64,000 nt of DNA, from NCBI GenBank assembly GCA_028684065.1, contig JAQUGO010000003.1, positions 122,171 to 186,170 of the forward strand, in the 5' to 3' direction. The notes under the pieces were generated by a model. The model ran no database searches. It was given only the letters and a program-made list of their open reading frames with translations, and was not told the DNA's origin. Source of the stretch: Sulfurospirillaceae bacterium (GTDB taxonomy: Bacteria > Campylobacterota > Campylobacteria > Campylobacterales > Sulfurospirillaceae). Below, one piece after another: positions 4,467 to 51,154 of this stretch. A program made the translations under genes and the position numbers. Numbering within the stretch: the stretch's first letter is position 1; each line of letters opens with the position of its first letter.

Positions 4467-6350
4467 TTAAGATTTAAATTTACCGAGCTCATTATTAAGG
4501 TTTTCAGTCATGTTATGAAGGTGCTCCGATGCTTTTGAAACATTGTTGATGCTCAGAATATTATCATGTGAAATGAGATTGATTTTTTCAACTTCTTCAA
4601 CGATATGTTGGATTTTAGAAGAGGTATCGATAAAATTCTCAACAGAGTGATTGGTATCATTAATGGTTTGTAAAATGATGGTGTCAATATGTGTCATACC
4701 ATTTTGCAATGTTGTAGTAATGGTTGCTAGATTTTGTATCTCTTTAGCATTATAGGTTATATCAGTATTGGTATCCATAATGGAATGAACGACAACATTA
4801 ATAGTCGTATCAATTTCACTCAAGCTTTTTTGTGTACGTTCGGCAAGTTTTCTGACTTCATCAGCAACGACAGCAAAACCACGACCATGTTCACCAGCTC
4901 TTGCTGCTTCAATGGCCGCATTTAGGGCTAAAAGATTGGTCTGATCAGCAATATCTTTGATAATACCTAGAACATTTTTGATTTCATTGGCATGGTCACT
5001 GACATGGTTTAATTTCTGAACAAGTTCTTGCTCTTTAATGGCTGTGATTTGCATCGTGTGCTCAAGCTGTTCAACTTGTTGTTTTACCGTATTAATATCA
5101 CCTTGCGTGCATTTTAATACATTTTGTGATTTTTTTGCTTTCTCAACGGAAAGTTGAATACTATGGGTTAACGTAGAACTTTTTTCTTTGGTTTCACGGA
5201 TGATTTTTGATTCTGCATGGGCATTTCGTACCACTTCCGATGCTGTACGGGAAAGTTCCTCAGAAATAGAAGCATTTTCATGGCTGATGATTTTTGAGTT
5301 TTTAACAATTTCGTGGAGCTTGTCAATAAAGCTATTAATGTGAAGCGAAACTTTTGCAAATTCATCTTGACCATTGACTTCAAGACGTTGTCTTAAATCA
5401 CCATCAGCACTAGAAAGGGTGCATGCAATATCACCGAGCCTATTTAAAGGCATTAAAAGTGCTCTGATGAGGAGAACCACAATAACAATAGACACTCCAA
5501 GCATCGCAGACCCCATCAAAAATAACTTTATCATTTGTGCATTTAAAAAGGCATAGGATGTTGATTTATCATAGGCTATACCAACTCTCCAACCACTCTC
5601 TTCTGAACGTGTATAGGCGTATAATTTATCGATATTTTTATAGGTATAATGCAGAATACCACTTTTTTGGCTATCAAATTGGTTGGTTAAAGAGGGTACA
5701 ATAGTTGTTAAATCTTTACCTATTATTGATTGATCAGGATGGGCGATAACAATGCCCTTTGTATCTTGAATGATGCCGTATCCTCCTTCAAAATTAATCT
5801 CTGAGATAGCCTTCGTAAGACTATCGAGTGTAATATCAACACCAAGAACCCCTGTAAATTCTTTCTCGTCATTGTAGATAGGAATCATAATAGTAATCAT
5901 TAAAATATTGTTAGTCGCGCCTACATATGAATCTGTCATACTAATTGTTTTAAGCTCTTTGGCTTTGATATACCAAGGACGAATTCTAGGGTCATATCCT
6001 TGTGGTCTAACTTTTTCACTCCCCCAAAGCATTCCTCCATCTTCAAATCCTATATAAGAGTCAATTCCGCCAACGATTTTAGTAGTTTCTTTAAGTTTTT
6101 CAGTCATATCATGCAAAGTTCTGATATCAATATCTTTATAAAAGAGTGCGGCACTGATGACGTTTTCTTTTTTAGTATGCAATAAAAGGTCGATGTAATT
6201 TGTGAATGAACGAGAAGTTGTTTGTAAGCTTGATTCGATTTGATTGACACTATTTTTTTTAGTATCAAGATAACTAAAAAGACCAAAAAGCATGAGGCTT
6301 AAAAAGAGTAAGATAGAAACCGTCAACGTTATTTTTGTTTTAAAAAGCAC
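4467..6350 (-). CDS. Methyl-accepting chemotaxis protein with dCache sensor domain
   Basis: Transmembrane chemoreceptor. Order: TM helix near the N terminus, a periplasmic double-Cache domain (~residues 25-260), second TM helix, HAMP domain, and a cytoplasmic signalling hairpin. The hairpin tip [42 protein letters not shown] binds CheA/CheW. The sensor contains DPRIRPWY and a later GVDI, matching the R..WY...D pattern of dCache domains that bind amino-acid amino and carboxyl groups, so an amino-acid-like ligand is plausible. No C-terminal CheR-tether pentapeptide is seen. I prefer the GTG at 6350, which has AAAGG eight bases upstream; the longer in-frame TTG at 6392 has no ribosome binding site. 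Single gene with its own terminator. Confidence 0.9.
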
Positions 6351-6459
6351 AGAGGGCACCTTTGGATAAAATTTTGATGATTTTATCGTCAAAGCACTAC
6401 AAAAGGATTACAGAATAAAGAGGAAAAGAGTATGCTTGATACTCTTTAGAGGGAAAGGT

Positions 6460-6669
6460 TTATGCCTTTTTCAAAAAGCATGTTTTTAGGACAAGCCCTT
6501 TAATTTTATCGGCATTGCATTCGATTTCATCTTCATTATCAGTGAGTCGAATATTTTTTACAAGTGTACCGCGCTTTAGCGTAGCGGATGTTCCCTTGAC
6601 TTTAAGATCCTTGATAACAGTTACGCTATCGCCGTCATTTAAGATATTGCCATTACTGTCTTTTGCCAT
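6460..6669 (-). CDS. PhnA/YjdM C-terminal-domain protein
   Basis: A 69-residue protein matching the C-terminal SH3-like domain of PhnA/YjdM: KDSNGNILNDGDSVTVIKDLKVKGTSATLKRGTLVKNIRLTD. The N-terminal zinc ribbon of full YjdM is absent, as in many short homologues. Despite the historical name from the phosphonate operon, the family's role is not settled. ATG preceded by AGGAGTAAGT. Single gene, divergent from metH. Confidence 0.8.
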   Translation of the reverse strand: MAKDSNGNILNDGDSVTVIKDLKVKGTSATLKRGTLVKNIRLTDNEDEIECNADKIKGLVLKTCFLKKA

Positions 6670-6749
6670 ACTTACTCCTAAAATTTCTCTTTATTATAAC
6701 ATTAATCAGAGTTTTGATACCATATAGTATATTATAGCTAGGAATATAT

Positions 6750-9700
6750 GTGGTAACACTCAATCAACTAATAAAGCAAAAATTTTTAATAATCGATGGT
6801 GCGATGGGCACGCAGATACAAGCACTAACGTTAAGTTCTGAAGCATGGCAAGGTATGGAAGGTTGTAATGAACTTTTAAACGTTACATGTAAAGAAGAAA
6901 TTCTAAAAATTCATCAAGGCTATTTATTAGCAGGTGCAGATATTATCAAAACCAATACCTTTGGTGCATTGCCGTGGGTTTTAGATGATTATAGTATTGG
7001 ACATAGAGCGTATGAGTTAGCACGGGCAGGGGCTGAAATAGTCAAAGAAGCATGTGTCGCTTATTCAACTTTGCAAAAACCGAGATTTGTAGCCGGTGCT
7101 ATGGGACCAGGAACAAAGCTTCCTTCATTGGGGCACATCGGATACGATGCCATGTATGAAGGGTATAAAATTACGGTGCAAGGTTTAATTGATGGTGGCG
7201 TTGATGTCTTCTTAATCGAAACAGCTCAAGACCCTTTGCAAATCAAAGCTGCACTTCATGCCATTCAAGACGTTCAAAAAGCTTTACATGTAAGCCTTCC
7301 TGTGATGGTGTCTGTAACGATTGAGCTGAGTGGTTCAATGCTCATTGGAACCGATGCAACCACCATCGCAACGATTTTAGAACCCTTTGATATTTTAAGC
7401 CTTGGTTTTAACTGTGGTACAGGGCCTGAACAGGTCGAGAAACATCTTAAAACACTTTGTTCTGTTTGGGGTAAACCCATCAGTGTGCATGCCAATGCAG
7501 GACTCCCTCAAAACAGAGGTGGTTATACCTTTTATCCAATGGGGCCACGCGAATTTGCAGACTTGCAAGAGAGATTTACTCTGCTTGATGGTGTTGCGAT
7601 AGTGGGTGGTTGTTGTGGCACAACCCCTCAGCATATCTTAGAGCTAGCCAAAAGAGTGGAGGGCAAAACGCCTTTGCCTCCTACAGGCAAAATGGAGCGA
7701 AGCATTGCCTCTTTATTTGAAAGCCGAGCGCTTAAACAAGACCCAGCGCCTTTTTTAATTGGTGAACGCAGTAATGCTACAGGTTCCAAAGCGTTTCGAG
7801 AGCTTTTACTCGCAGAAGATTATGATGGTACGCTAAGCGTGGGACAACAGCAAGTCAGAAGTGGTGCGCATGGTATTGATGTGAGTGTCGGTTTTGCAGG
7901 ACGTGATGAACATAAAGACACTAAAGAAGTTGTTGGGCGATACGTTCAAAAAATCCTTTTACCTTTGATGCCCGATACTACGCAAGTACCAGCTCTTGAA
8001 GTTGCACTTAAACTTATCGGTGGAAAGCCTATCATCAATTCAGTAAATCTTGAAGATGGCATTGAAAAGTTTGATAAAGTTTGTTCTTTAGCCAAGCGCT
8101 TTGGTTGTGCTTTAGTGTGTTTGACGATAGATGAAGTGGGTATGGCGAAGAGTAAAGCACAAAAAGTGGCGATTGCACAACGTATTTATGAATTAGCGAC
8201 GCAAAAACACGGTATCCATCCTGAGGACTTAGTGTTCGACTTATTGACCTTTACCGTTGGTAGTGGGGACGCTGAGTATCATACAGCAGCCATTGAAACC
8301 ATAGAGGCGATACGTGAATTTCATGCAATGCACCCCGAAGTGGGTTTTGTACTTGGCATTTCAAATATCTCGTTTGGTTTGGCTAAGCATGCGAGAGAGT
8401 ATCTAAACTCCGTCTTTTTGCACCATTGTGTGCAGGCGGGATTGAGCATGGCGATTGTGAATGTGAAAAATACGCTTCCGATGCATAAAATAAGCGACAT
8501 TGATAAAAAGATGTGTGAAGATTTACTCTTTAACCGCCGTGAAGAGGGCGACCCACTGTTTGCTTTTATTAGCCATTTTGAAGATGTAGTTGACAATAAA
8601 GAGGAGAGTGACGCGGCGTATGAAGCCATGAATACGGAAGAGAAAATCGCTTCTTTGCTCATCGATGGTGACAAAGAGCGGATGATGAAAATCCTTGTTA
8701 GTGCTAAAGAAGAGATAGCGCCTGAACGCATCGTCAATGAGCTGCTTATTAATGCGATGAAGGTTGTTGGCGAGCTTTTTGGAAGTGGCAAGATGCAACT
8801 GCCTTTCGTGCTTCAATCGGCAGAAGTGATGAAAGCTTCGGTGGATTATCTAAATCCCTTTTTACCGAGAAAAGAGAAAAGTAGTACAACGACCTTGATT
8901 ATCGGAACGGTCAAAGGCGATGTTCATGATGTGGGTAAAAACCTTGTGGATATCATTTTAAGTAACAACGGTTTTAAGGTCATCAATATTGGTATTAAAG
9001 CTGACCTTGAGCATTTTATAGAAGCGTTAAAAACCCATAAAGCGGATGCAATTGGCATGAGTGGACTTTTGGTTAAATCGACCAATGTTATGAAAGAAAA
9101 TCTTGAAGCCATGCAAACAATGGGACTTAAAATCCCTGTGATTTTAGGGGGCGCGGCCTTGACGGATGCTTTTGTCGAAGATTTTTGTCGTCCGATTTAT
9201 GATGGGCCCATTTTTTACTGTAAAGATGCTTTTGAAGGCATAGAAGCGATGAGTCGCATTGAAGCTCAAAATTTTGATACCTCTTTTGGTCGAAAAGTTT
9301 TGGATAAGGCAAATGAAAAAGCTAAAAAAGAACCTGTGCTTATGCCTTCTTTTAGTGAACTTAAAATGCCAAGCCGTGAGATACGCATTCCCATACCACC
9401 ATTTTGGGGTAGACGCGTTTTAAAGACAGATGTCAAATCGCTTGCTTTTGAATGGATAAACCATAAGATTTTATTTGCACAGCGTTGGGGATACAGCGGA
9501 AAAGGGCAAAGTAAAGAAGCAAAGCAAAAACAACTTGATGAAGTATTGTGGCCTGCGTATGAGCGTATTAAAGCAGATATTGAGAGGCTAGGATTGTTTG
9601 AACCAACCATTATTTATGGTTACTATCCAGTGCGTTCTGATGAAAATAAGCTCTATCTTTTGGATGAGAATGAAGGCTATTTTAGTGAAGAACAGATTAA

Positions 9701-45275: not shown

Positions 45276-45632
45276 ATGCATAACACTCTTTTTTGGCCAA
45301 ATGACGCCAAATTGATAGAAATTGAAAATACAACCGTTCCCTTTTATGGGTATATGCAAGATGGTAAACATGTGATTGGATTTGATACCTCATCATGTGT
45401 TCCGCCTGAGCCTATGATAAATGCGATGATAGCGCTGGAAAAGCTTACTGATGAAACGATTCAAATTGTTATGATAAACCATCGTTCTCCCGTAGGATTG
45501 TTAGCTAAAGTAGGTAATTTTTATGATATCGTCATAGAAGATTTAGGCGATAGCAAACAAAAACTGACATTTTCGTATAAAGCAGGAGAGAGCGAAAAAG
45601 CAGATCTTAGTAAAAAAAATTGCGCAGGCTGA
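45276..45632 (+). CDS. DUF2249-domain protein
   Basis: 118 residues. The region FDTSSCVPPEPMINAMIALEKLTDETIQIVMINHRSPVGLL matches DUF2249, a TusA/SirA-related fold found beside NO and denitrification genes. A Cys lies just before the PPEP motif. Exact role unknown; proposed roles involve metal or sulfur handling under nitrosative stress. ATG with AAGGATAAAACT. First gene of a three-gene operon. Confidence 0.8.
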   Translation: MHNTLFWPNDAKLIEIENTTVPFYGYMQDGKHVIGFDTSSCVPPEPMINAMIALEKLTDETIQIVMINHRSPVGLLAKVGNFYDIVIEDLGDSKQKLTFSYKAGESEKADLSKKNCAG

Positions 45633-45633
45633 T

Positions 45634-46905
45634 ATGAAAGTATCACTAGCCACTGAAATGGCACCACCTTTTGGTTTAGTCGCACACTTTTTTATTACTG
45701 GAATTGTTTTTTTACTGTTATCTGCTATAAGTTTTATTTTTTTAGTTGAAGATTTTTCAGGCTATTTTATTTCACTTCATTTTGCTGCTTTTGCCCATTT
45801 ATATCTTCTTGGCTTTGTAATGATGATTATTTTTGGAGCTATGTATCAACTTTTACCAGTTGTACTTGAAGCACCAATTTTTTCAAAAGATTTTGCATAT
45901 GTACAGTTTTATCTTTATCTCATTGGATTAGTCATGATGATTGGTGGCTTTACATTTGATAATTATTTTTTATTCGTTCCTTATGGTGGGGTTATCACTT
46001 ATCTTTCAATCATTATATTTTGTATGAATGTTTTTTTAACATTTAAACGTTTAGATACTATAAATATTGTAGGTAAATACTTGCTTGTAGCAACGGCATT
46101 TCTAGCTCTTTCTGTGACTTTAGGTTTGATTGTTGGACTTAGTTTAGGGCATGGTCTATTTGAAATTTCAGTGAATGCATGGGTTCAAGCACATATGATC
46201 GGAGCTCTTGGAGGATTCGTGATGATGATAGTCATGGGCGTCTCTATGGTCTTGATTCCTATGTTCTCTTTATCGCATGGTTTTAACGACCGTTGGATTC
46301 GTATAGCTTTACCTTTACATACCGTAGGTATTTTAAGTGCCATGTTGTCCTTTTTATTTGAACTTTCATGGTTGTATAAAAGCATAGCGTTAGGAGTGAC
46401 AATAAGTTCTATAGTTCTTTATATTATACAAATGTTTCTCATTTTAAAATACAGAGTGCGTAAACAAAATGATTATTGGATCAAAAATAGTGTATTCGCA
46501 CTGCTTGCTTTAGTTTTATCAATGGGCTTAATAGCTTTAAGCATTGTCACTGATAATACATCATTCTCCTTTGCTGGAGGTTTTTTATTGCTATTTGGTT
46601 TTATCCTGTGTTTTATTGTGGGACATATTTATAAAATATTGCCATTTCTTGTTTGGTATGATAAGTTTTCACCTCTTGTTGGAAAGCAGAAAGTACCACT
46701 TTTGCATCAAATGGTGCATACAAAAATTGCAGATATACAAACTTTTAGCTTAGTGATAGCCATAGGAGGACTCACTCTAGCCATTGCTTTTAATCTCTTT
46801 GGAAAGGCATTTTTAATAGGCTCACTTTTGATGCTAGTTTCTATTTGCTTAGTAATTTATAATATTGGATACATATTTATATTTAAAATAAAGGATGAAA
46901 TATGA
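45634..46905 (+). CDS. NnrS/haem-copper-oxidase-subunit-I-like 12-TM membrane protein
   Basis: 423 residues with about twelve helices and several in-membrane His: HFAAFAHLYLLGFVMMIIFGAMYQLLPV, WVQAHMIGALGGFVMMIVMGVSMVLIPMFSL, LPLHTVG, FIVGHIYKILPFLVWY and LHQMVHTK. This fits the NnrS or lone haem-copper oxidase subunit I group, where His ligate haem. No companion oxidase subunits are nearby, so it is not a full terminal oxidase. Likely role: protection against nitric oxide. Starts two bases after the DUF2249 stop; its own stop overlaps the DUF59 start (ATGA). Confidence 0.78.
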   Translation: MKVSLATEMAPPFGLVAHFFITGIVFLLLSAISFIFLVEDFSGYFISLHFAAFAHLYLLGFVMMIIFGAMYQLLPVVLEAPIFSKDFAYVQFYLYLIGLVMMIGGFTFDNYFLFVPYGGVITYLSIIIFCMNVFLTFKRLDTINIVGKYLLVATAFLALSVTLGLIVGLSLGHGLFEISVNAWVQAHMIGALGGFVMMIVMGVSMVLIPMFSLSHGFNDRWIRIALPLHTVGILSAMLSFLFELSWLYKSIALGVTISSIVLYIIQMFLILKYRVRKQNDYWIKNSVFALLALVLSMGLIALSIVTDNTSFSFAGGFLLLFGFILCFIVGHIYKILPFLVWYDKFSPLVGKQKVPLLHQMVHTKIADIQTFSLVIAIGGLTLAIAFNLFGKAFLIGSLLMLVSICLVIYNIGYIFIFKIKDEI

Positions 46906-47198
46906 TAGTAACACAAGAAGCAGTATACGCAGGAATTTCAACAGTCATTGACCCAGAAGTTGGATTTGATATAGTCTCTTTAGGGCTTATTTATAATGTT
47001 ATTATAGAAGAGGCAAATGTCCATGTGAAGATGACACTCTCAACGAGGGGATGCCCTTTACATGAATTGATTAAACAGTGGACTAAAGAGGCTGTAGAAA
47101 AAGTGAAAGGTGTGCAAAATTGTGAGATTGAAATTGTATGGGAGCCAGCTTGGAATATTACGATGGCAAGTGAAAGTGTAAAAAAAGCACTAAGTTAG
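46902..47198 (+). CDS. DUF59/MIP18-family Fe-S assembly protein (SufT/PaaD-like)
   Basis: 98 residues of the MIP18 family: VYAGISTVIDPEVGFDIVSLGLIYNV, VHVKMTLSTRGCPLHELI (conserved Cys in the RGCP motif) and EIVWEPAWNITMAS. Members help load or repair iron-sulfur clusters. Placed with DUF2249 and the NnrS-like protein, it probably repairs Fe-S damage by NO. Start overlaps the upstream stop. Third gene of the operon. Confidence 0.88.
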   Translation: MIVTQEAVYAGISTVIDPEVGFDIVSLGLIYNVIIEEANVHVKMTLSTRGCPLHELIKQWTKEAVEKVKGVQNCEIEIVWEPAWNITMASESVKKALS

Positions 47199-47256: not shown

Positions 47257-47293
47257 TTTGTATTAATATAATAAATGACTAATTGGAGTTATG

Positions 47294-47599
47294 ATGGAAT
47301 TAATGACAAGAGCTAATAGCAGTTCTTACGAGATTGTGATTACAGGAAACATTAAAACAATAATAGATGGACAAAGCATTAAAGAGGCTGTCGCGAAGGC
47401 TTATCAAGCACAAGTAGGAACTCCTATCAATCTTTATATTAAAGATTCTTTCATTATCACATCATCAGTCATTGGTTTTTTGATTAAAGCAACAAATGTT
47501 GATAAAATTCCTTTGCACGTTATCGTAGGTAGCCAAGAACTTTATGATATGCTCTCAGAAATGAATCTTCTTGATTCTATGAATGTTAGAAAGGCTTAA
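47294..47599 (+). CDS. STAS-like domain protein
   Basis: 101 residues resembling the STAS fold of anti-sigma-factor antagonists: [43 protein letters not shown] (strand and helix around the usual phospho-site) and [24 protein letters not shown]. The Ser pair in ITSSVIG could be phosphorylated, but I cannot show it. The second of two adjacent ATGs is preferred because GGAG is then five bases away rather than two. Its stop is one base before the haem chemoreceptor gene, so they are cotranscribed, and it may modulate that receptor's output. Confidence 0.7.
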
Positions 47600-47600
47600 G

Positions 47601-49190
47601 ATGAAAAAAGGTATTGGGTTTAAAATAGGCTTTACATTAATTCCTCTTTTGCTTATTAGCTTTATCATATTACAATTTTTTATTGTGAGTGAATTTAAAA
47701 AAAGTTCAGAACTTCAGAGCGAAAATAATCTTAACTTATTGAGTCAATCTGTTTTTCAAACGGTACGCTCAGCAATGAATTTGGGAGATAGAGAGTTGAT
47801 TGAAAAGTCACTGCATGATGCTGGACAGATGAAAGGTATTAAAGAGCTAAAAATTCATCAATCCCAAGCAGTGATAGATATTTTTGGAACAAATGCAAAG
47901 CCTTCAACAGATGAGATGGTGGTTGGCCTTTTTAAAAATCCAATATCTCATAATGTGCCAATTGATGATAACAATGGTCACCGGTTACGATTATTAAAGC
48001 CCTTGGTTGCTGAAGCTGAGTGTTTGGTATGCCATGCAACATCACAAAAAGGAGATGTGTTAGGCGTTATGGATATGACTTTTTCTTTTGAAGAAATTGA
48101 TGCCAATATTAGAGAAATTAGCTGGAAATTAGTTATGATTTTTATCGTTTCATTGATATTTACAGCGGTACTTATTATGTTGGTTATGAAAAAAGTTGTG
48201 GGTAATCCTTTGGATGTATTACGTGAAAGAGTCAAAGACCTTTCAAGTGGTAATGGTGATTTAACAGCACGTGTTCAAATTTCTAGCAAAGATGAATTAG
48301 GTGAAATTGCAACATATATTAATGCTTTTATTGAAAAAATCCAAGCTATTATTCTTTCGTCTCAGAGCATTTCACAATCTGTTGAACATACAGGTGAAAA
48401 ACTCAGTAGCAATACGGTTAAATTTACAGAAGGGATGGTTGAACAAGCTCATCAAATTAAAATGTCTTTTGATTTAATGAAAAATATAGAGTCTGATTTA
48501 GATCTTTCTGAAGAGTTGGCTATCCATACAGTTGAAGATAATAGCTCTTCCTTTAGTGTGTTAGAAAAAATGAGTATATCACTAAATGAAGTGGTTCAAA
48601 ATATTAATAATGCGAGTGATAAAGAGCAAGACATGTCACAACAAATTCAAGTTGTTGTTTCGCAAACGGATCAAATCAAAGGCGTACTATCTATGATTAA
48701 AGATATTGCAGATCAAACGAATCTTTTAGCACTTAATGCTGCTATTGAAGCAGCTCGTGCAGGTGAACACGGGCGAGGATTTGCTGTGGTTGCTGATGAG
48801 GTACGCAAGCTTGCTGAGAGGACTCAAAAGTCACTTGCTGAAATTGATGCCACTATTAGTGTTATTGTTCAAGGTGTAACGCAATTAAGCTCCAACATGG
48901 AAGAAAATTCTCTTAATATTCGCAATATCTCTGATAGTGCTTTTAACGTTCAAAATGAGACAGAAGAGACCAAAAATAGAACACTTCAATCTATCGAAAT
49001 TTCAAAACGAGCTTCTAAAAAAGTCGTTGAAATATCACATATGACCAATGTGATGATGGAACAGATGAAAAATACACTGAGATTGTCGAATGCAAATGAA
49101 ACTATAGCTGAGGAACTTTCTGGAATTTCATCGAGTATGTTGGAAATGTCTAAAAATCTCGATTCCACACTTTCAACATTTAAAGCCTAA
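47601..49190 (+). CDS. Methyl-accepting chemotaxis protein with periplasmic c-type haem motif
   Basis: 529 residues: TM1 (~9-30), a periplasmic domain of about 145 residues, TM2 (~177-197), HAMP, and a signalling hairpin with the same tip as the first chemoreceptor in this window ([43 protein letters not shown]). The periplasmic domain holds CLVCH (residues 141-145), a c-type haem attachment motif, after [10 protein letters not shown] and before [16 protein letters not shown], as in Tll0287/DUF3365-type or haem-PAS sensors. It probably senses redox potential, NO or oxygen. ATG at 47601 with AAAGG upstream; the longer TTG frame from 47583 overlaps the STAS gene. Confidence 0.9.
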
Positions 49191-49192
49191 TG

Positions 49193-49218
49193 TACAAAGG
49201 GATTTTATTCCCTTTGTA
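49193..49218. terminator. Bidirectional terminator between the haem MCP and ABC-F genes
   Basis: TACAAAGGG pairs with CCCTTTGTA across an eight-base loop. It starts just after the MCP stop and overlaps the last ABC-F codons. Confidence 0.6.
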
Positions 49219-51154
49219 TCATTTCCATTTTTTCTTCAATACTCAAAAGCTCTTCTATCAAAGGCTCTAAAGCTTTTTCTTTTTCTTCTAAGCTATGACT
49301 TAGAGTAGTTAACCCAAGTTTCTGATAACATTCAGGATTTTCTAAACAGCGTTGTATCTCTTTGATTTCAGCTTCAAGCATATCGATTTGAGAAGGAAGT
49401 GTCTCATAGGCTTTTTGCTCTTTATAGCTTAATTTTAGTGCAGAGGGTTCTTTTGTTTTTTGACTTTTAGGCTCACTCGCTTTGACTGCTTCCTCATTTT
49501 CAAGTATCTCTAATTCACGAATCTCTTTTTCAATGTCTAAATACTCACTGTAGTTTTGATAACTCTCTTCAATGATACCTTCACCTTTAAAAACATAAAG
49601 TTTTTTAGCCATCTTATCCACGAAATAACGGTCATGGCTGACAAAGATAACGGCTCCTGCAAAGCTTTGTATGTACTCTTCTAAGATATTAATCGTAGGG
49701 ATATCCAGGTCATTGGTAGGTTCATCTAAGATAAGGCAGTCTACTTCTTGGGTAAAGAGTAGGGCAAGAGCGACTCTATTTTTTTCCCCACCACTTAAAA
49801 CGCCAATTTTTTTATTGATATCTTCTTTGGGAAATAAAAAGTTTTTTAGATACCCATAGACATGCATATTTTTGCCTTTAACATCGACTCTATCGCCTCC
49901 ATTAGGGCAAAATGTTTCTATCAAATTCTTGTTATCATCCAACATAACACGTTGTTGGTCGAAATAGCCGATTTTAAAATCACCTACTTGAAGCTTTCCA
50001 CTATCAATGGCTAATTGTCCTAGTAAAATTTTAAGAAGCGTTGATTTTCCAGCTCCATTTTTTCCAACTATGGCAATACAGTCTTTTTGCAAGATACGTG
50101 TTGTAAAGTCTTTGATAAGCAATTTATCACCTAATTTTTTGTTTATTGCGTGCATTTCAAAAAGCATTTTTTGCTTATTGATGATTTTTTCACCGTTGAA
50201 ATTATGTTTTTCGCGTTCTAACTCAAGTTTGAGTTTGCGCACTTGCGAAGGATTTTTTTTAGCTTCCATTCGAAGATCCATAACACGCTGTTTACGCCCT
50301 TCATTGCGTTTAAGGCGTGCTTTGACGCCACGTCTTAACCACTCCTCTTCACCTTTAAGATATTTAAGAAGCGTGTCGTGTTGTTTTTGAAGCGATAGCA
50401 TGAGTTGTTCTTTACATGTAAGGTAATTTTCATACCCACCTTCAAAACTTCGAATCTTTTCATCATCAATTTCGATAGTGCGCGTAGCAATAGCATCGAT
50501 AAAATAACGGTCATGTGAAATGAAAAGAAGGGTAAACTTCGCATTCAAAATCATCTTTTCCAAAAACTCCACCATGTACACGTCAAGGTGATTTGTAGGT
50601 TCATCCAAGAGTAAAATATCGGGCTTTTTTAAAATAAGACCAGCTAGTGTCACACGGCGTTGTTCGCCACCACTAAGAGCATTAACATCATAATATTCAA
50701 ATTGCTTTAAATCAAATTCTTGCAAGACTTGTTCAACTTTTTCATCCAAATTCCATGCATCATGAATATCAAGATACGTTGCAAGCTCACTTTGCTCTCT
50801 TAAAAGTACATCATGCTCTTGAGCCGTTTCAAGCTCAATTAAGATGGCTTCATAGCGAACAAGTGCATTTTTAAGCTCACTGAGTTCCTCTTCTATGGCT
50901 TCTTTGACATTAATGTTTTCTTTAAATTTAGGAGTTTGGTCTAACATACCTACTTTAAGGTTTTTTTGGACAATGCGTCTGCCCTCATCCGCTTCTAGTG
51001 TTCCATGAACAATTTTCATTAAAGTGGATTTTCCACCACCATTTTTGCCAATAATGGCGACGCGCTCATAAGCGTGCAATGAAAAATCAACCTGTGTCAC
51101 TATTTTTTGTGACTCATATGCTTTACTAATTCCAATCAAATCTAAAAGTGCCAA
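49205..51154 (-). CDS. uup: ABC-F ATPase (Uup-like)
   Basis: Soluble twin-ABC protein acting on the ribosome. Two Walker A motifs (GKNGGGKST and GKNGAGKST), two signature motifs (LSGGEQRRV, LSGGEKNRV) and two Walker B motifs (LLLDEPTNHLD, LILDEPTNDLD) are seen. The linker between domains carries the ABC-F arm and a basic region (RRGVKARLKRNEGRKQRV), and the C terminus is a Uup-like coiled coil (~530-649). 649 residues, fitting Uup. Single gene. Confidence 0.88.
   Translation of the reverse strand: MALLDLIGISKAYESQKIVTQVDFSLHAYERVAIIGKNGGGKSTLMKIVHGTLEADEGRRIVQKNLKVGMLDQTPKFKENINVKEAIEEELSELKNALVRYEAILIELETAQEHDVLLREQSELATYLDIHDAWNLDEKVEQVLQEFDLKQFEYYDVNALSGGEQRRVTLAGLILKKPDILLLDEPTNHLDVYMVEFLEKMILNAKFTLLFISHDRYFIDAIATRTIEIDDEKIRSFEGGYENYLTCKEQLMLSLQKQHDTLLKYLKGEEEWLRRGVKARLKRNEGRKQRVMDLRMEAKKNPSQVRKLKLELEREKHNFNGEKIINKQKMLFEMHAINKKLGDKLLIKDFTTRILQKDCIAIVGKNGAGKSTLLKILLGQLAIDSGKLQVGDFKIGYFDQQRVMLDDNKNLIETFCPNGGDRVDVKGKNMHVYGYLKNFLFPKEDINKKIGVLSGGEKNRVALALLFTQEVDCLILDEPTNDLDIPTINILEEYIQSFAGAVIFVSHDRYFVDKMAKKLYVFKGEGIIEESYQNYSEYLDIEKEIRELEILENEEAVKASEPKSQKTKEPSALKLSYKEQKAYETLPSQIDMLEAEIKEIQRCLENPECYQKLGLTTLSHSLEEKEKALEPLIEELLSIEEKMEMIQRE

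Follow-up and report, generated by a model that had tools for sequence, protein, structure and literature searches.

The window analysed here, a 64,000-nucleotide stretch of the genome of a Sulfurospirillaceae bacterium, contains two closely spaced genes encoding a STAS-domain-only protein and a methyl-accepting chemoreceptor with a predicted c-type haem in its sensor domain (Table 1). The coordinates of both genes, and the spacing of one base reported in the initial annotation, were confirmed on the sequence: a single G separates the TAA codon of the STAS gene from the ATG codon of the receptor gene. An alternative ATG start for the STAS gene is possible at 47291, but the spacing from GGAG favours the start at 47294. 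The source genome is 2.67 Mb long in 16 contigs, in which the chemoreceptor signalling domain is matched 21 times; among its receptor loci that can be read through, this is the only one with a STAS gene directly ahead of the receptor gene. The STAS family has just this one match in the source genome, and its close named relatives are in Sulfurospirillum, including S. cavolei and S. diekertiae.

Table 1. Features of the STAS-receptor locus, its upstream neighbours, and the unlinked phosphatase/kinase gene; coordinates are those of the window except where another contig is given.
Feature	Coordinates	Strand	Remarks
Three-gene set: 118 aa protein; 423-aa COX1-like membrane protein; MIP18/SufT-type Fe-S assembly protein	45276..47198	+	Neighbour of the pair
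STAS-domain-only protein, RsbV/SpoIIAA type, 101 aa	47294..47599	+	Candidate phosphoserine S57 at 47462-47464
Methyl-accepting chemoreceptor, 529 aa	47601..49190	+	TM1, periplasmic c-haem Cache domain, TM2, HAMP, MCP signalling hairpin
sCache_heme (DUF3365/Tll0287-type) periplasmic sensor domain, about residues 33-177	47697..48131	+	PF11845, Foldseek
Met59, counterpart of the GSU0935 distal axial ligand Met60	47775..47777	+	GSU0582 alignment, invariance, role from PMC8396549
CLVCH c-type haem attachment motif, residues 141-145, proximal His145	48021..48035	+
HAMP domain, residues 202-248	48204..48344	+	PF00672
Acidic site LDxxEExxIxTxED, residues 300-313	48498..48539	+	Tracks STAS presence; candidate STAS docking or adaptation site
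MCP signalling domain, hairpin tip contacting CheA/CheW	48609..49049	+	PF00015
Terminator-like hairpin 3' of the receptor gene	49192..49219	+	Weak: one site found versus 1.1 expected
SpoIIE (PP2C) + HATPase_c_2 (RsbW-type kinase) fusion, 416 aa	G000:C14:46920-48167		Another contig of the source genome; sole such fusion there

The receptor has a standard architecture, with HAMP (PF00672, 38.6 bits) and MCPsignal (PF00015, 106.3 bits) domains that both score above the cut-off and two membrane helices, and the CLVCH motif lies within its periplasmic domain as originally described. The sensor domain, whose boundaries are approximate and were drawn from AlphaFold secondary structure and by eye from hydrophobicity, scores 24.0 bits against PF11845 (Tll0287; cut-off 24.1) and 20.2 bits against PF21563 (Mcp40H-20 sensor). 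The only two cysteines in the receptor are both in CLVCH, which in the structural model forms a short helix between strands of the sheet as an insertion of the Cache domain. A chance match to CxxCH was rejected because the motif arises in only 3 of 20,000 shuffles of the receptor sequence and is kept without exception in 48 homologous sensor domains, in which M59, C141, C144, and H145 are all invariant down to 28% identity.

The AlphaFold2 model of the receptor (pLDDT 88) has a whole-protein WalK model as its top Foldseek match, with the sensor-domain structures 3b42 (E 3e-6) and 3b47 (E 1.8e-5) among the best; both give low TM-scores (0.52 by target), presumably an effect of domain swapping in the crystallized dimers. 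A weak phmmer match of the sensor to GSU0582 (3b47) aligns Met59 with a GSU0582 methionine that is Met60 when its CxxCH histidine is numbered His143, following the numbering of PMC8396549, in which the ligand roles of the proximal His and distal Met60 in GSU0935/GSU0582 are described. A 2026 preprint defines the sCache_heme family, in which CxxCH is conserved in 99% of members; NO binding was measured in a member of the class fused to signalling modules, a class with reported NO-sensor properties, and the stand-alone members look like redox proteins, not NO sensors (PMC12889525). The motif, Met59, and the 3b42/3b47 fold thus support the suggestion of a haem-type sensor like those of two Geobacter receptors, and the haem half of the system is an additional member of the known sCache_heme/Tll0287 family, with covalent haem predicted. 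Cytochrome c maturation proteins are encoded in the source genome. The signal sensed may be NO, redox, or something else. The same c-haem domain is also present in proteins of 609-732 aa that lack the NLLALNA hairpin sequence and have other output types (L189, L190, L199, L200, L216, and L217).

No Pfam model matched the STAS protein at E <= 1, including PF01740 (STAS), which matches only two of its 57 relatives (best E 0.003). Nonetheless, the earlier 'STAS-like' label is correct: a profile of the family finds Bacillus subtilis RsbV (6m36) over its full length with an E value of 9.1e-5, and the AlphaFold2 model (pLDDT 95) has RsbV/RsbW (6m36; E 1.8e-4, TM 0.74-0.76) and SpoIIAA (1auz) as its best Foldseek matches. 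The protein as modelled is thus of the RsbV/SpoIIAA fold, and a SulP-type STAS domain was rejected, RsbV and SpoIIAA being the nearest structures. Ser57 is invariant in all 57 relatives and aligns to the RsbV phosphoserine, and is presumably phosphorylated. An ORF artefact was rejected given that homologues of the STAS gene are found in 84 of 399 genomes.

Upstream of the pair is a three-gene set that had been described as an NO-type operon. The set is real, and its synteny holds across the whole genus and in one genome of a sister genus (G258), but its identification as an NO operon was rejected: the 423-aa protein scores 26.6 bits against PF00115, below the cut-off of 34.8, and matched no NCBIfam model and no PDB chain. 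The set stands equally ahead of STAS-less receptors, and the order purH-STAS-receptor is found without it in other sister genera. Of the initial interpretation, the Geobacter-kind c-haem sensor and the conserved STAS-receptor pair stand, but the NO-specific adjacent operon does not.

The 84 STAS-containing genomes of the order span 35 genera, and 60 STAS loci were fetched for reading of their neighbourhoods. Twenty have STAS with a receptor, 18 have STAS and a receptor in the same operon as a PP2C/kinase fusion (L104, L106, L075, L083, and others), 19 have the fusion beside STAS alone (as also at L071), and three have neither, two of which hold a cut or broken receptor. The linked receptors are mainly of two kinds with unrelated sensors, the c-haem receptors of 529-530 aa and nitrate/nitrite receptors of 658-659 aa with a NIT domain (PF08376, E 2.8e-61). 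The reverse gene order, with the haem receptor first and then STAS, occurs in several other families (L104, L194, L211, and L220). Conserved STAS-chemoreceptor pairs, a search for which had been proposed with the initial annotation, are thus present in both gene orders and with both types of sensor, and its suggestion that the STAS protein tunes the receptor signal is plausible. A possible third sensor kind is seen at L076 (G021, 5971-8208), where STAS is followed by a protein that by eye is CetB/Aer-like with a PAS domain, and then by a receptor.

The initial annotation had missed the NIT-receptor pairings, a receptor site that co-varies with STAS (see below), and a kinase/phosphatase partner elsewhere in the genome. 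This last is a fusion that in the source genome consists of the SpoIIE and HATPase_c_2 domains alone and lacks an N-terminal receiver, whereas longer relatives start with receiver-like sequence. The fusion is carried by 77 of the 84 genomes with STAS and by seven of the 315 without it, a count that leaves out the nine weakest matches and for which a Fisher p value is not to be taken literally because the species are related. On the receptor tree there are five supported independent pairs for STAS and the fusion, of which four agree and one opposes (p 0.375), and this test is underpowered. Some loci have STAS and the kinase with no receptor alongside, so the switch may act on different targets in some lineages. 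At L078, L080, and L110 an RR-PP2C-kinase (or its kinase part) and STAS lie directly upstream of genes that by eye are pstC/pstA/pstB-like phosphate ABC transporter genes, so that the same switch would adjoin a different system there, and at L084, L098, L100, and L103 a NIT-type receptor, RR-PP2C-kinase, and STAS stand in series, with a gene that by eye is FlhB-like after the STAS gene at L084 and L103.

Four Sulfurospirillum-type genomes lack both STAS and the fusion at their syntenic places but retain the haem receptor. At L201-L204 the order dsb-purH-three-gene set-receptor-ABCF is kept and STAS is absent, and in G065, G204, G265, and G367 rnhB adjoins an AAA gene and the fusion is missing from the rnhB-AAA interval, whereas in STAS-containing genomes it lies directly beside rnhB there. 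The STAS-lacking receptors nest within the STAS-associated Sulfurospirillum receptors in the tree (support starred for the enclosing fork, 87 for the nearest fork), suggesting loss. Physical linkage in many families together with this double absence provides stronger evidence than the tree test for a tie between STAS and the fusion. In two further genomes, G048 (C1:413142-415191) and G062 (C1:385299-387351), the PP2C/kinase gene adjoins a 395-aa receptor gene and STAS was undetected in the genome; a diverged STAS gene may sit between the two.

Comparison of the cytoplasmic helices shows that STAS-associated receptors contain an acidic site, LDxxEExxIxTxED, exactly 75 residues ahead of the hairpin-tip sequence LLALNA. 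Searched for as a fixed pattern, it is present in 23/25 haem and 14/14 NIT receptors linked to STAS, but in none of the 18 other receptors of the source genome and in one of 25 unlinked haem receptors, which is from a STAS-containing genome (G301). The STAS-lacking Sulfurospirillum orthologues have EE replaced by KR at the site and read LDESKRLALHTVEDN and similar, and the site is absent from all 11 chemoreceptor hairpins met by the NIT-domain search of STAS-less genomes. Further genomes were picked by STAS status before inspection, and in the 30 loci that the search returned, the best helix-profile match has E-E/Q in 16 of 21 with STAS and in none of nine without. STAS-containing genomes with receptors lacking EE/EQ are G335, G383, G042, G168, G047, G124, and G021, the last with regard to its best-matching receptor.

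Among 76 receptors, 46 have both the site and STAS, 24 have neither, six have STAS without the site, and none has the site without STAS. On a tree built without the site's own columns, 11 independent phylogenetic pairs give 7.6 that agree, none that oppose, and 3.4 unchanged (p 0.008, range 0.008-0.03), and the association is weaker on a quick tree (p 0.03, range 0.03-0.125); these values are to be read with the pattern having been discovered on part of the same data, and with a receptor with E-E/Q having been preferred at STAS-containing loci with several receptors and a few genomes supplying more than one receptor. The Tsr receptor of E. coli has LLALNA at 377 and is methylated at 297, 304, and 311, and we take the acidic site to map to the adaptation region, overlapping the methylated region of the E. 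coli receptors. STAS could therefore act on signalling or adaptation, or the link could be indirect, and the acidic site could be a methylation site tied to STAS only in that way.

We propose that the two genes encode the receptor-side components of a partner-switching system in which the STAS protein docks on or tunes the receptor, a reading based on sequence comparisons to which we assign a probability of roughly 0.55. A c-type haem covalently bound in the Cache domain would be ligated by His145 and, in one of its redox states, by Met59 too, and a redox change or NO binding would swap the distal ligand and shift the transmembrane helices; the receptor would then signal to CheA by way of its HAMP domain and MCP hairpin. 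A single fusion protein would both phosphorylate Ser57, with its RsbW-type kinase half, and remove the phosphate again, with its PP2C half, and STAS in one of its two states would bind the cytoplasmic helix at or near LDxxEExxIxTxED in the adaptation region, setting receptor gain or adaptation according to the internal state of the cell. The haem and phosphorylation steps rest on homology and comparative genomics and the path to CheA on domain content; the putative contact with the helix, and the direction of its effect, we infer from the gene pairing and the co-varying site. The more specific proposal, that a serine-phosphorylation switch acts directly on chemoreceptors with STAS docking on the acidic site of c-haem and NIT receptors and altering their signalling as a second layer of receptor control, set by a kinase/phosphatase, beside CheR/CheB methylation, is a tentative one that we hold at somewhat less than even odds. 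Against partner switching at this locus, the fusion in Sulfurospirillum is unlinked to the pair and is without the receiver domain of its relatives.

A serious rival, especially where the operon encodes a REC-PP2C-kinase-like protein, reverses the direction, with the receptor as input and STAS as output. The haem receptor would alter STAS phosphorylation through CheA and the receiver of the fusion, where present, and STAS would in turn have a target of its own, such as an anti-sigma factor or a cyclase, in the manner of HsbR/HsbA. The single operon of REC-PP2C-kinase-like protein, STAS, and receptor in relatives fits a wiring of CheA to REC to PP2C to STAS, and HsbR/HsbA steers motility or biofilm through a REC-PP2C-kinase and a STAS protein (PMC6482189). 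However, CheA could not act directly on the Sulfurospirillum fusion, which has no REC, and the receptor persists at ~75% identity in STAS-less species and so has a job without STAS; we consider this direction rather unlikely overall.

It is less probable still that the two are plain operon mates, with STAS a transcription or stress regulator that is merely co-expressed and the acidic site an ordinary methylation site of a receptor subfamily. STAS-associated receptors do fall outside the cytoplasmic-domain group that holds most other receptors, such that shared ancestry explains part of the pattern, and STAS is also found without receptors. However, STAS and receptor genes are found side by side repeatedly, in either order and with unrelated sensors, EE is changed to KR in STAS-lacking orthologues, and the site has followed STAS on independent branches. 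Finally, it is doubtful that the haem motif serves redox or electron transfer instead of gas sensing, or carries no haem, since despite the apparent redox nature of stand-alone family members (PMC12889525) the domain here has a signalling module attached, as in the class with reported NO-sensor properties, and all of the ligand residues are conserved.

The relatives suggest that a sigma-factor-type phosphorylation switch is wired to chemoreceptors for respiratory signals. If this wiring is real, then the strength with which members of this bacterial order follow gradients of nitrate, nitrite, NO, or redox would be set by the internal state of the cell through the PP2C/kinase protein. The EE versus KR residue pair makes the docking idea directly testable.

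The haem receptor resembles Geobacter sulfurreducens GSU0582 and GSU0935 of the sCache_heme group in having CxxCH, the proximal His, and the distal Met at equivalent positions (PMC8396549, PMC12889525) and a periplasmic Cache/PAS-like domain in a HAMP-MCP receptor, with 3b42 and 3b47 as the nearest solved sensor domains. It differs in its STAS partner, a word search for which found no mention in the preprint that defines the family (PMC12889525). The switch proteins resemble the Bacillus RsbV/RsbW/RsbU and SpoIIAA/AB/E systems in the STAS fold, the phosphoserine position, and the families of the kinase and PP2C domains; unlike in Bacillus, a single chain combines kinase and phosphatase, and neither a sigma-factor nor an anti-sigma partner of the STAS protein was identified here. 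The HsbR-HsbA (PA3346-PA3347) system of Pseudomonas aeruginosa and CrsR-CrsA of Shewanella also have a STAS-only protein with a conserved serine (PMC6482189, PMC8256260), one protein that combines a PP2C phosphatase with an RsbW-type kinase, and a link to motility, and the longer relatives of the fusion described here likewise begin with receiver-like sequence. However, FlgM, RpoS, and a diguanylate cyclase are the targets known for these systems, whereas the STAS protein here adjoins chemoreceptors, and in contrast to HsbR the Sulfurospirillum fusion is without REC and is encoded away from STAS. In Vibrio fischeri, too, a STAS-only protein, SypA, is switched by a single protein, SypE, that acts as both serine kinase and serine phosphatase, but that system controls biofilm formation and no chemoreceptor partner is described for it (PMC8256260). 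The same review mentions in passing that some STAS-only proteins sit in motility or chemotaxis operons (PMC8256260), and we found no description of a STAS partner switch attached to chemoreceptors in the open-access literature searched, which is weak evidence of absence. The haem sensor is thus known in kind, as is the partner switch, and it is the pairing of STAS with a chemoreceptor that is the new part.
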